DNA from: Salinisphaeraceae bacterium
GTDB lineage: Bacteria; Pseudomonadota; Gammaproteobacteria; Nevskiales; Salinisphaeraceae
Length of the DNA: 64,000 nucleotides
Assembly (NCBI GenBank): GCA_002683405.1
Contig: NYTH01000051.1
Location: 1 to 64,000 of the forward strand
Direction of reading: 5' to 3'
Notes under the pieces: generated by a model
What the model was told of the DNA's origin: nothing
The model's input: the letters and a program-made list of their open reading frames with translations, nothing else
Database searches by the model: none
Shown: in pieces, positions 59,773-64,000 of the stretch
Layout: each line of letters begins with the position of its first letter
Position numbering within the stretch: the first letter of the stretch is position 1
Program-made: the position numbers and the translations under genes

Positions 59773-60369
59773 ATGCCTGATGACGAGATGAACGCCGCCC
59801 GCACAACCACCCGCGAAGAAGCCATGGATGCGGTGAAGGTGCTCTTGCGCTGGGCTGGCGAGGATCCTGACCGGGAAGGCCTGCTGGATACACCGGCGCG
59901 GGTGGCCGATGCCTACCGCGAATATTTTCGGGGGTACGAGGAAGACCCCACCGCCTACCTGCAGCGGACGTTCGAGCAGGTGGGCGGATACGACGAGATC
60001 GTCCTGCTCCGCGACATCCCGTTTCACTCCCACTGCGAACACCACATGGCGCTCATCGCCGGCAAGGCGCACGTGGCCTATCTGCCGCGCGACCGGGTGG
60101 TCGGCATTTCCAAGCTGGCCCGGGTGGTGCACGCCTTCGCGCACCGCCTGCAGGTCCAGGAGCGGCTGACGGCGGAAATCGCGGACTGCATTCAGACTGC
60201 ACTGGAGCCTTACGGCGTGGCCGTGATCGTGGAAGCCACGCACGCCTGCATGAGCTGCCGCGGCGTCGAGACGCCGGGCGTCAGCATGAAGACCAGTCGC
60301 ATGATGGGCGTCTTCCGAAAAAGCGACAAGAGCCGCTCAGAGGTCCTTCAGCTCATCAACAACCGCTGA
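59773..60369 (+). CDS. folE: GTP cyclohydrolase I
   Basis: 198 residues, family length. It converts GTP to dihydroneopterin triphosphate for folate and pterin synthesis. Zinc and catalytic motifs are clear: [30 protein letters not shown], the QERLTAEIA helix, and [12 protein letters not shown] 59773 is preferred to an in-frame TTG at 59725; 59788 is another option. Stands alone, convergent with an alpha/beta hydrolase (24 bp). Confidence 0.95.
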
Positions 60370-60393
60370 GTCCGGACCGGCCACCGGCCTGCT

Positions 60394-61242
60394 TCAGAGC
60401 CGATTGCGCGCCAGAAAGTCCAGCAGCCCGCTGTTGAAGGCGTCGTTGGAATCCCCCACCACCATGTGCCCGGCGCCGGAGACATCCACAACCTCCAGCT
60501 GCGGCAGCATCTGACGGAACTCCGCCACGCCGGCATCGCTGACGATATCGCTCCGTGTACCCCGGATGAGCATCACCGGCACACTGATCCCGTCCTTCAC
60601 GCTCGACATGCGGTCCGCCAGCGAAGGCGGCGGCTCCGGCCGATCATCCTGTTCCAGCATCTTCGGATCCCAGTGCCAGTACAGTCGGCCGTTCTCGCCG
60701 CGTCGCAGATTCTTCATCAGGCCACTCGGGTCGCGCGGTCGCGGGCGGTGGGGATAATACTCGCAGACCGCATCGGCGGCCTCTTCCACCGTGGCAAACC
60801 CCTCGGGATAGGCCCGCATGAACGCCAGGATCCTGTCCGCGCCGGCCTGCTCCACGCGGGGCACCAGATCGACCATGACCAGCGCGCCGATGCCGGCCGA
60901 CCGCGTTGCGCCCGCCAGATAGAACGCGGTGGCCGCGCCCATCGAGGCGCCCACGAGCGTGGGCGGCGTCTCCAGCGTATCGATGATGGCCTGCAAATCC
61001 GCCGCCAGCACGGGCAGCGTGTAGTCGCCGTCCGGCGACCAGCCGCTCTCGCCGTGACCCCGCGCATCGTAGCTGATGACGTGGTAACCGGCCGCCACCA
61101 GCGCGTCGAAAGCACCGCGCCAGGAGTGCCGCGTCTGGCCGCCACCGTGCAGGAGAATCACCGCAGCGCCCTCGACGTGACCGCCGATGTCCGCGACGAG
61201 TTGAACAGCCTTCTGGCCGGTATAGCGCTTCACCTGGGACAT
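60394..61242 (-). CDS. Alpha/beta hydrolase
   Basis: 282 residues. The oxyanion region is ILLHGGGQTRHSW, the nucleophile elbow is LVGASMGAATAF (Ser), the acid is probably in LIRGTRSDIVSD, and the His is in SGAGHMVVGDSND. Resembles the epoxide hydrolase/haloperoxidase-like group (SYDARGHGESGWS). It could hydrolyse an ester or C-C bond; the substrate is unknown. Confidence 0.85.
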   Translation of the reverse strand: MSQVKRYTGQKAVQLVADIGGHVEGAAVILLHGGGQTRHSWRGAFDALVAAGYHVISYDARGHGESGWSPDGDYTLPVLAADLQAIIDTLETPPTLVGASMGAATAFYLAGATRSAGIGALVMVDLVPRVEQAGADRILAFMRAYPEGFATVEEAADAVCEYYPHRPRPRDPSGLMKNLRRGENGRLYWHWDPKMLEQDDRPEPPPSLADRMSSVKDGISVPVMLIRGTRSDIVSDAGVAEFRQMLPQLEVVDVSGAGHMVVGDSNDAFNSGLLDFLARNRL

Positions 61243-61784
61243 GCATTCCGCCTCGACTTGATGACAACCGCACTGGCGGTCTGCAGGCGGGCCGCAGCCG
61301 ATGCTGGCCCGTCCCGGACGCGCCGCAGGCGGCGCGCTACTCTAGCATTTCGACCACGACGGCCCGACTCGGCACAGTGGCATTGGCCTCTATGCTGTAA
61401 GCCGGTCGTTGCGACTCGGGCGGAAGTAATTCTTGGGGTTCTGGATCGTTCGGAATATTTCCTGCCCACCGGCGGCGCTATAAAGCTGCTGTTTATAAAC
61501 GGGAAATGGTAGCCACGGCTGCTACCACATAAATATCATAAACTATTGTTTTGTAACGCATTATATATAATGGATATTTTTTTACCCCTATATTTACCCC
61601 TGGGTTTCTAAGCTTCCCGTAAATTGAGTATTGACCACGTCCAGAACTGCGAGATAATTCCAGTGCGGTCTACAACCGTCTGATTCAGTCTAAATCAGCC
61701 AGCTAAACGCCAGTGAATATCGCGACACATGTCGCCCTGGTCCACGAAAAATTTCGTGGTTGTTTTGCCCACTGGTTTACGACA
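61243..61784. other. Putative mobile-element left boundary
   Basis: A 540-bp gap in which composition changes from GC-rich to AT-rich near 61500. It contains a 7-bp hairpin (TGGTAGC/GCTACCA, 61507-61527), an AT-rich block with TATAAT (61566-61571), the direct repeat TTTACCCCT at 61581-61589 and 61593-61601, and an 18-bp palindrome CCACGAAA-AA-TTTCGTGG (61742-61759). Such TACCCC repeats are reminiscent of sequences beside integrase genes and att sites (recalled). No integrase or tRNA is present here. Confidence 0.5.
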
Positions 61785-61991
61785 ATGAATTCAGAGACAA
61801 CTCAAAAGTTTTTAACCGTCCGGGATGTTGCCGAACGATATTCCCTGGGCGTGAGTACCGTTTGGCAAAAAACTGGATCCGGTGAAATTCCATCGCCAGT
61901 ACAGTTGACGGCACGAACCACCCGCTGGCGGCTCAGCGATCTGGTTGCGTGGGAGTCGACGCGCCCCCTAATAACCGAAAACAGAAACTAA
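61785..61991 (+). CDS. AlpA-like helix-turn-helix regulator
   Basis: 68 residues when started at ATG 61785, the usual AlpA size; a GTG at 61713 would add 24 residues. The sequence KFLTVRDVAERYSLGVSTVW, then GEIPSPVQLTARTTRWRLSDLVAW, is the MerR-like wHTH of AlpA/excisionase proteins that regulate integrase genes of prophages and integrative elements. An 18-bp palindrome lies 26 bp upstream and may be its operator. First gene of the mobile segment. Confidence 0.85.
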   Translation: MNSETTQKFLTVRDVAERYSLGVSTVWQKTGSGEIPSPVQLTARTTRWRLSDLVAWESTRPLITENRN

Positions 61992-61993
61992 AA

Positions 61994-62023
61994 AGCCGGG
62001 TCCACCATACTGGCGGCCCGGCT
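61994..62023 (+). terminator. Hairpin after the AlpA-like gene
   Basis: AGCCGGG (61994-62000) and CCCGGCT (62017-62023), with a 16-nt loop, begin 3 bp after the stop. No T-tract follows, and another small hairpin (GCGCA/TGCGC) is adjacent. A terminator or processing structure is possible. Confidence 0.4.
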
Positions 62024-62100
62024 CGCGCATTGCAGTGCGCGTAGATCGTAATGTCCTGAGATCGGACTAATTAATTCTAGCACGGCTCCCAGATGTGAGC

Positions 62101-62122
62101 CCGGCTCCGACAACGGAGCCGG
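62101..62122 (+). promoter_or_regulatory. Hairpin that buries the ribosome binding site of the replication gene
   Basis: CCGGCTCCG-ACAA-CGGAGCCGG, a perfect 9-bp stem with a 4-nt loop, ends 2 bp before the ATG at 62125. The GGAG (62115-62118) that would act as ribosome binding site is inside the 3' arm, so folding would block translation initiation. Structural prediction only. Confidence 0.6.
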
Positions 62123-62124
62123 TC

Positions 62125-63459
62125 ATGCAATCTCTTGCAGTTTATGAACGGGGGCAGACCATTGCGACCCCGATGGAACACTATCGTCTGCTGCACCCGC
62201 AGCAGCGTGGCGTTGTAATTGCACTCGAACAATCGAACGCTCGGGGTAGCTCGCCCGGAAACTGGCACAAACTGAGGGCCGATGACCATCACACCTCGGA
62301 GCTTCGGCTCGCCGCGTTGGCCCATAAAAAAAACGCGTTCATTACTCCAAACGAGTTTTACGGTTGGCGCAGGGTTGGGCTGACCAATCGACTGTGCGCA
62401 TGCTGGGTTGATATCGATAATTTTACTGACCTGGACGGAGCACTGGACGGTGTAATGGCAGCAAAATTGCCCCAGCCGTCATTCATCATGCGCAGCGGCA
62501 CCGGCCTGCACCTGTACTGGCTGCTCGACTCGATGCCACCAGAAACACTGGGTACGTGGCAGCGTGTTCAGAATGCCATCATTAGCGGGTTAGCCGAGCA
62601 GATAGGCGTGGCCCAACGCGGCAAAAATCGTGGCGGCGTCGACCGCTGCGCCAGAGACGCCGCTCGCATCATGCGGCTAGCCGGGTCAATTCATTCTGGG
62701 ACAAACCGCGTCGTGACTGGCGAGATAATTACCGGCGAACGCTGGACCCTGCACGAGCTGGCGAACGAGGTATTAGGTTATCGAAAGCCTGGCTGGCAGC
62801 GAACAACCCGCCACAGCAAATCGCGGCGGATCAGCTTTTCTGCCGAAAAGGTCAGGCGGCAGGGTCTGCTATTGCCTCACCACCGGGGCATCATTTCGTG
62901 GTGGTCGGTTGTCTATAAGGACCTCCTGCTAATTGCTCGATCACAGCCCAACGCAAAAATTCCCGACGGATACCGTGACATTTGGTTGCACCTCGCAACC
63001 GTCGCTGCCTCCTGGTTCGCGGAGGCAGAGGCACTTCGCGATGAATCTCTCTGGCTCGCAGGGAAATTCACCAACCTCGATCTATCCTCAGCCGAGCGAT
63101 ACATGACCAGCACCGTTGAACGAGCAGAGCGCGCTGCGATGGGGGAGACGATAGAGTGGAGAGGTGAACAGCGGGATAGTCGCTATTATTATCAACGCCG
63201 CACACTACGACATCTGCTCAGCCCGCTGATTTCAGATGAGTCTCAGCTGAGAGCTATTATCAGCGATGAATTACGTGCCGAACGTCGTCGTCTGAGCAAA
63301 CGCAAAGGCAAACAGCCGCTAAGGCAAAATGCCCCTATCGAATGTCGGCACAGGGCTTCCGAACTAGCACAATCGGGGGTACCGGTCAGCACAATCGCCG
63401 ACCTGCTCGGTTACCCTAGATCCACAGTCTCAGGCTGGTTGCAAAGCATTTCTAAGTGA
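62125..63459 (+). CDS. Primase-like replication protein of the mobile element
   Basis: 444 residues. The region around residue 90-135 reads CACWVDIDNF, then SFIMRSGTGLHLYWLLD, matching the archaeo-eukaryotic primase pattern D-x-D (Asp96/Asp98) followed by S-G-x-G-x-H (His129). A middle region with ARDAARIMRLAGSIHSGTN is common in such Rep/primase proteins. The C-terminus (about 410-444: ASELAQSGVPVSTIADLLGYPRSTVSG) is a helix-turn-helix. It probably initiates replication of an integrated or plasmid-like element. ATG 62125 is preferred over GTG 62095. Confidence 0.7.
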   Translation: MQSLAVYERGQTIATPMEHYRLLHPQQRGVVIALEQSNARGSSPGNWHKLRADDHHTSELRLAALAHKKNAFITPNEFYGWRRVGLTNRLCACWVDIDNFTDLDGALDGVMAAKLPQPSFIMRSGTGLHLYWLLDSMPPETLGTWQRVQNAIISGLAEQIGVAQRGKNRGGVDRCARDAARIMRLAGSIHSGTNRVVTGEIITGERWTLHELANEVLGYRKPGWQRTTRHSKSRRISFSAEKVRRQGLLLPHHRGIISWWSVVYKDLLLIARSQPNAKIPDGYRDIWLHLATVAASWFAEAEALRDESLWLAGKFTNLDLSSAERYMTSTVERAERAAMGETIEWRGEQRDSRYYYQRRTLRHLLSPLISDESQLRAIISDELRAERRRLSKRKGKQPLRQNAPIECRHRASELAQSGVPVSTIADLLGYPRSTVSGWLQSISK

Positions 63460-63475
63460 TTTTGGCAGCCCTTCC

Positions 63476-63943
63476 TCAGGAGGGCTTGCCATTGGGATGT
63501 TCAATTTTTCCGCTTTTAACCCGTAACCAGAACCCCCTCGGAGGCCGGGCTATCGCCCATTTTTTGCACCTGTTTGCGATTCCAACACCGGAGACCCCGA
63601 ATTCAGCTGCCAACTGCGATACCGGTTTCGTCCACACCAATCGTTCGAGCTCCGCCCGGCTAACGGAATCCCACTCACCCCAACGGGGATGCTCCGCTCG
63701 CAATGTTTCACGACGGTCGGCCTCGGCCCGCCTCGCCTCTTGCATGCGCCTTTCATCCGCCTCCTCAGCATTTTTAAGAAGCCGATGAATGCTGGGATCC
63801 GGTTCAGGTCCGTATTTAGCCAGAATCGGACGATATTGCAGCAATACCTGCGCGTGCTCCTCTGCCACGAAATGGATAAGTGCCCGCATGCTCCTAATCT
63901 CAAATACATAGTCGGACCGGAGGGTGGGCAATACACCAGTCAT
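63476..63943 (-). CDS. HTH protein of the mobile element
   Basis: 155 residues. A charged helical N-half (coiled-coil-like EEADERRMQEARRAEADRRE near 60-80) is followed by LERLVWTKPVSQLAAEFGVSGVGIANRCKKW and IARPPRGFWLR, a short DNA-binding module often found in phage, plasmid and genomic-island proteins. It converges with the replication gene (16 bp). The start is uncertain: ATG 63943, or ATG 63889 with TAGGAG just ahead. Function unknown, probably regulatory. Confidence 0.65.
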   Translation of the reverse strand: MTGVLPTLRSDYVFEIRSMRALIHFVAEEHAQVLLQYRPILAKYGPEPDPSIHRLLKNAEEADERRMQEARRAEADRRETLRAEHPRWGEWDSVSRAELERLVWTKPVSQLAAEFGVSGVGIANRCKKWAIARPPRGFWLRVKSGKIEHPNGKPS

Positions 63944-64000
63944 TGAGGAATGCCACTCGCGCAGTCCGTCCGAGGCTCCAGAAACCTCCGCGCACCATAA

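Follow-up and report, generated by a model that had tools for sequence, protein, structure and literature searches.

What begins where the GC content falls sharply near the right end of a 64,000-nucleotide stretch from a Salinisphaeraceae bacterium? The stretch, hereafter the window, makes up the first 64 kb of contig C51 (99,165 bp), and the analysis read on rightward to the contig end; positions beyond 64,000 are contig positions. An earlier note, made from the letters of the window, took 61500-63943 for the edge of an uncharacterised integrated element that could be inverted, decayed or extended rightward. Very probably, a 33.1-kb genomic island has inserted at the 3' end of a tRNA-Met gene, and the region is its integrase-distal end. 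The edge was borne out by an integrase, the tRNA-Met gene and a second attachment copy found to the right, and rightward extension was the correct one of the three options.

Ends and extent of the island

The island occupies contig 61504-94656 (33,153 bp). Its left end in the window is annotated as follows.

61504..64000, no strand: portion of the island within the window (whole island, contig 61504-94656)
61504..61521, no strand: distal attachment repeat, 18 bp, AAATGGTAGCCACGGCTG, identical (18/18) to contig 94639-94656
61507..61527, no strand: inverted repeat TGGTAGC-CACGGCT-GCTACCA (7-bp spacer), overlapping the attachment repeat

The right copy of the attachment repeat (94639-94656) consists of the last 15 bases of the tRNA-Met gene (contig 94642-94717) plus three bases. 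At 18 bp, it is the longest direct repeat shared by the zones 60300-62400 and 92800-99165 (the runner-up has 13 bp), and its presence at both ends fixes the bounds of the island. A second repeat copy was to be sought right of 64,000 and is there, at contig 94639-94656; the repeat concerned, however, is the tRNA 3' end and not TTTACCCCT. The latter is ruled out as the attachment repeat, as the ends carry the tRNA 3' end and TTTACCCC sits inside both of them. The overlapping inverted repeat looks like a candidate pair of inverted core-type integrase sites around a 7-bp overlap. Imperfect 28-bp repeats (L002 6407 and 9447, 71%), considered as ends of a 3-kb sub-element, were dropped once the 18-bp ends were found.

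Base composition changes at the same point. GC falls from ~65% to 47% at 61.5 kb, in agreement with the AT-rich DNA described earlier; the 500-bp bin that follows the boundary on its right side has 46.8%, versus 61-68% across the 6.5 kb leftward. The island as a whole has a GC fraction of 0.565 versus 0.651 and 0.636 in its flanks. That the contig is itself a plasmid owning the replication gene described below (rep) is ruled out: its ends do not overlap, no 21-mer is common to the outer 3 kb of each, and the right flank carries tRNA-Met, ychF, a phosphoribosyl pyrophosphate (PRPP)-synthetase-like gene (named by eye) and tRNA-Gln.

Conservation of these genes at the same place in all relatives, the pattern that the earlier note said would speak against an insertion, was looked for and not found. 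None of the 84 other genomes searched within the order has rep, and none of 16 family relatives has a match to this island's integrase in the flank beside tRNA-Met (~1.5 kb examined; <0.2 kb in L132). In all 16, tRNA-Met adjoins ychF, and in at least 11 the neighbouring open reading frame (ORF) is, by eye, an AarF/UbiB-like kinase. The locus thus joins the features expected of a tRNA-integrated island of P4 type: an integrase beside the tRNA gene, a tRNA-end repeat opposite, deviating GC and patchy presence. In one family relative (L139, genome G084), an unrelated integrase-like ORF (by eye) lies downstream of the same tRNA-Met beside ychF; the site may therefore be used repeatedly and may be a hotspot.

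Integrase and candidate arm-type sites

The integrase that was to be sought right of 64,000 is a P4-type tyrosine integrase, encoded by a full-length frame beside tRNA-Met (contig 93249-94532, minus strand). Its domains match Arm-DNA-bind_3 (1.1e-22), Phage_int_M (2.8e-22) and Phage_integrase (1e-12). It keeps the box I Arg, the box II Arg, the following His and the Tyr. Box II itself reads AGFR, versus HGFR or HGWR in 29 of 29 homologues examined. The box II histidine of tyrosine recombinases is usually important.

The direct repeats seen earlier inside the boundary, TTTACCCC at 61581 and 61593, are present and have counterparts at the integrase end.

61581..61600, + strand: pair of TTTACCCC sites spaced 12 bp, candidates for the arm-type sites of the distal end (counterparts: contig 94483 and 94519)

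Across the 99-kb contig there are six copies of TTTACCCC/GGGGTAAA, four of them at the two ends of the island. The left pair lies 59 and 71 bp inside the attachment repeat, and the right copies, at 94483 (reverse) and 94519, are beside the integrase start. Of 369 genomes in the class, 57 (own genome included) have integrase homologues at E 1e-60, and 30 loci, one of them the island's own, were used for comparison. Upstream of these 30 integrases there are 27 TACCCC/GGGGTA sites versus 4.6 expected from the remainder of these loci, the motif being present in 9 of the 30 upstream regions. In three cases at tRNA-Met (L075, L077 and L078), the layout of the motif is like the window's own. Distal ends were sought in five related islands, several stretches being cut by contig ends. 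An island at tRNA-Leu (G280) has a 15-bp att (attachment) copy with two GGGGTA sites 12 bp apart, ~60-70 bp inside. Because TTTACCCC recurs beside the integrase start and the G280 island has the same paired motif inside its distal end, the TTTACCCC repeats are, judging by their placement, most likely arm-type integrase sites for this integrase subgroup.

The alpA-rep module at the distal end

Inside the left pair of candidate arm-type sites, two genes point rightward and a third converges on them. The AlpA-like, primase-like and helix-turn-helix (HTH) genes reported earlier are all present where they had been placed.

61742..61759, no strand: 8-bp-arm palindrome from the repeat scan, 25 bp upstream of the alpA ATG
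61785..61991, + strand: alpA-like gene of excisionase/regulator type (68 aa with the ATG as start; 92 aa with GTG 61713)
62095..63459, + strand: rep, for a plasmid-type replication protein of the AEP primase-polymerase kind that ends in an HTH (likely start 62125)
62101..62122, + strand: 9-bp-arm hairpin that includes GGAG (62115-62118), upstream of the likely rep start codon at 62125, from leader folding
63476..64000, - strand: 3' part of the gene for a 333-aa protein (whole gene contig 63476-64477, converging on rep)

The AlpA-like ORF matches PHROG 66, 'excisionase and transcriptional regulator' (7.8e-9). In Pfam it matches HTH_17 (1.3e-5; 25.8 of 27 bits) and Phage_AlpA (0.0012; 19.1 of 21 bits), and in NCBIfam it reaches 15.4 of 28.8 bits. 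The palindrome ahead of it is a possible operator. This palindrome and the one at 62101-62122 were both noted earlier and are present, though they stand only modestly above chance because 27 of 200 block shuffles contain at least one such repeat.

The product of rep is a 454-aa protein with an N-terminal AEP domain and a PHROG match to DNA polymerase/primase (3.4e-5). Its relatives are found in 257 plasmid records (tblastn), 179 of which match at least 80% of the query in a single place; the highest identity is 43% (Methylomarinovum IN45P), followed by 38% (Acidithiobacillus caldus). Many listed plasmid relatives are named as RepB-domain or replication proteins and others as hypothetical. Conversely, there are no matches among 50,697 phage records, and one pattern scan of viral contigs gave one patterned stretch and no confirmed relative. 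In genome contigs, 42 rep loci were confirmed, several on named plasmids. Twelve of these were aligned with the window's own sequence (alignment A2), leaving out L039, further Chromatium copies, a fragment and more distant rows. D106, D108 and H139, which we take to be the AEP DxD...H motif, are invariant in 13 of 13 aligned sequences, and the profile matches the AEP domain of S-2L PrimPol (2.7e-7).

A model of Rep predicted from the 13 sequences (mean predicted local distance difference test score, pLDDT, 77.5) superimposes on S-2L PrimPol (Z 18.4, 2.6 A over 176 residues) and on RepB' primase (Z 13.9, 3.2 A over 173 residues). Residues 24-228, at the N-terminus, carry most of the structural matches among those listed, and residues 406-454 form a small HTH whose best match is Tn3 resolvase (Z 7.6 over 44 residues). 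As modeled, Rep has the AEP primase-polymerase fold.

The leader between alpA and rep folds with a z of -4.4, and none of 200 shuffles is as stable. The hairpin covers GGAG, which ends six bases short of the likely start codon (62125), and this suggests that translation of rep may be controlled by the hairpin. One 10-bp repeat spaced 22 bp occurs at the rep 3' end, and at least one such pair appears in 138 of 2000 codon shuffles. No iteron origin was recognised near rep: this repeat is near chance level, and 15 other rep loci have no common repeat position.

A similar arrangement occurs in a second element. In a metagenome-assembled genome of Proteobacteria (L036, genome G450), a small HTH ORF stands directly before rep. 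It matches phrog_597 (4.9e-5) and PHROG 66, the excisionase family (3.5e-4), and no HTH family in Pfam or NCBIfam. The rep gene starts ~0.8 kb away from where a tRNA-Thr gene ends, an exact 48-bp copy of the tRNA-Thr end lies 14.9 kb further along the same contig, and a tyrosine-integrase domain match ends ~0.64 kb inside this distal copy. Genome G450 has no Arm-DNA-bind_3 match, and the nearby integrase is another tyrosine recombinase. An att-HTH-rep order at one end with an integrase at the other is thus found with two integrase types, in two cases. Upstream plus-strand ORFs were read by eye at eight rep loci: a small HTH ORF immediately precedes rep in L036 only, an HTH_17 gene lies ~900 bp upstream in L033, and none was seen in the other six. 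Another integrative replicon may be present in Thioclava indica (L054 5833-11165), where a distant rep has downstream of it an HTH_17 gene (5.8e-6, narrowly below the cut-off) and two long ORFs that by eye resemble recombinases.

The 333-aa protein has no family in Pfam or NCBIfam, no sequence match in the PDB up to E 1 and no relative in viral contigs. Its last ~60 residues, an HTH-like region, match proteins on 34 plasmid records, one of which (L011) matches weakly over most of the protein's length (26%). Its model, from a single sequence, has a mean pLDDT of 46.

Cargo, origin and meaning of the island

The bulk of the island is anti-phage cargo. Rightward of the distal module lie RES-Xre, a Wadjet operon (jetABCD), a UvrD-type helicase gene, PDC-S27 and Dsr1, and further genes encode a type III methyltransferase, an NYN protein and, by a weak match (5e-5), a type III restriction subunit. 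The earlier note had called the element uncharacterised. It is an element, but one that is largely characterisable from its defence cargo and plasmid-type Rep.

Within the cargo, the UvrD-type helicase (contig 76627-78705), which adjoins PDC-S27 and Dsr1, matches a HigB-like toxin at its N-terminus (Pfam 3.5e-5, below the cut-off). A repeat has three copies in the genome (E up to 1), all inside the island and outside the window, at contig 66329-66424 (L002 11330-11425), 67341-67417 and 75533-75573; two copies share 82 bp at 90% and the third 41 bp at 95%. It has no plasmid match, and its 19-bp core has none in viral contigs. The copies bracket a gene at 66466-67245 and the Wadjet segment (67375-75532) and are possibly boundaries of cargo cassettes. 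The bracketed gene is AT-rich (39% GC in a 500-bp bin inside it), and its 259-aa product has a signal-peptide-like start (by eye) and no convincing NCBIfam or PADLOC family.

What kind of element brought this cargo? A decayed integrative conjugative or mobilisable element that lost its transfer genes is a tenable possibility, if on the unlikely side, and is compatible, as a history of the island, with the tRNA-Met insertion proposed here. Consistent with such an origin, a 268-aa protein encoded beside the integrase matches MobC_subf (1.6e-9), and the like-built L036 element has a MobC-like gene after rep with a stronger match (3.3e-54; 184 of 200 bits). The match of the 268-aa protein is, however, far below cut-off (37 of 200 bits), and the protein has no plasmid match and only 2e-4 to its L036 counterpart. 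Moreover, no relaxase or secretion genes were recognised among the island proteins scanned, not every ORF having met every library.

Alternatively, alpA, rep and the 333-aa gene could be left over from a plasmid that integrated separately, or from an older insertion, and have become fixed at the edge without belonging to the working backbone of the island, the integrase moving only the cargo. The plasmid relatives of Rep, the partial ones of the 333-aa protein, the lack of a visible origin (oriV) near rep, and a GC of 55-58% in these genes versus 67% in the neighbouring RES-Xre would all fit. Yet the attachment repeat and arm-like sites lie left of alpA-rep, so the repeat-bounded element contains these genes; the same order is seen in L036, and all three frames are open. 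We consider a remnant unlikely.

Least probable is a P4-like phage satellite mobilised by a helper phage, with AlpA and primase as in P4: the P4-type integrase domains, AlpA-like regulator and primase gene are shared, but the primase is of the plasmid AEP type with neither phage-record match nor confirmed viral-contig relative, much of the 33 kb is defence genes, and where a P4 satellite has an alpha-type primase-helicase architecture the island has Rep, with an N-terminal AEP domain and a C-terminal HTH, next to a gene without family (the PHROG scan covered the three left-end proteins only, and capsid and packaging genes had no systematic search).

Several observations weigh against the reading of this locus as a tRNA-Met island with an alpA-rep end and arm-type TTTACCCC sites. 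The source genome is the sole member of its genus among the 85 searched, and the ORFs that were read next to tRNA-Met in relatives have no match in contig C51; the comparison therefore offers no exact empty site. The AlpA family scores fall below the Pfam and NCBIfam cut-offs, and neither an iteron array nor a clear oriV was recognised near rep. TACCCC is absent from 21 of the 30 integrase upstream regions, including those of six cases at tRNA-Met (L072, L073, L076, L086, L092 and L098), and L072 is the best-scoring integrase homologue. Four of the five related islands (G252, G140, G430 and G105) showed no convincing distal repeat in the sequence examined, so that one in five gave a distal end. 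Lastly, with Ala at the HxxR histidine, the integrase does not have the complete catalytic set of an active tyrosine recombinase. Current mobility is doubtful because of this replacement, and the island may be fixed or its integrase weakened. The altered box II bears on mobility and not on the origin of the island.

If the tRNA-Met island operates, or once operated, as its parts suggest, the integrase would bind TTTACCCC through its N-terminal arm domain and cut in the tRNA-derived core, while AlpA would serve as a recombination directionality factor, an activator or both, directing excision. In the excised circle, int and alpA-rep would be divergent, back to back around attP. Priming by Rep would let the circle replicate and so stabilise it, as RepA is reported to do for Salmonella genomic island 1 (SGI1). 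A more far-reaching idea, which we regard as speculative and rather doubtful, is that alpA-rep is an exchangeable 'excise-and-replicate' end cassette common to elements of different integrase families. An AlpA-type switch directly inside att would drive a hairpin-gated, plasmid-type AEP Rep and so couple excision to plasmid-like copying of the circle; here the loss of the catalytic His would have frozen the cassette, and the defence island would still house a replicon with the potential to fire.

Parts of this arrangement have precedents. In Vibrio pathogenicity island 2 (VPI-2; IntV2/VefA), which shares the tRNA insertion, tyrosine integrase and small AlpA-like genes, AlpA-like VefA is essential for excision and AlpA-like vefB marks the island end (PMC3014918). 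Unlike in VPI-2, a plasmid-type AEP Rep here follows the AlpA-like gene, and the integrase is without its box II His. SGI1 is likewise a chromosomal island with a plasmid-type replication initiator, an IncN2/N3-related RepA reported to maintain it transiently as a plasmid (PMC7826253); its initiator type and site (trmE) differ from those here, where replication is only predicted. IncU plasmid RA3 has repA-repB followed by oriV with repeats at the repB 3' end and, as here, a small HTH regulator gene upstream of rep in the same direction (PMC9455977). However, RA3 repA is of Cro/cI type rather than AlpA, and no counterpart of RA3's long DR1/DR2 repeats and oriV at the repB 3' end was recognised here. 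The likeness to RA3 is one of gene layout. Aeromonas and Klebsiella records are only distant matches (the listed Klebsiella at 23%); homologous Rep proteins are those of the Methylomarinovum (43%) and A. caldus (38%) plasmids. The island recalls known defence islands (PMC10121019) in that an integrative element carries Wadjet, Dsr1, PDC-S27, type III restriction-like genes and a toxin-antitoxin pair in one cluster, and only the gene combination and mobile backbone appear particular here. Among the matches listed in the literature, no title or abstract describes this island or an alpA-AEP-rep cassette. The element is thus of a known kind but notable for its end module, which holds a plasmid-type AEP Rep, and for its altered integrase.

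The island ties defence genes (Wadjet, Dsr1, PDC-S27, type III restriction-like and RES-Xre) to an identifiable mobile backbone, and because the ends of this backbone are defined, its excision is directly testable. Concrete candidate arm-type sites are proposed for a group of P4-type integrases. Finally, plasmid-type AEP rep genes, known from free plasmids, are suggested to serve as replication modules of tRNA-integrated islands, comparable to RepA of SGI1.

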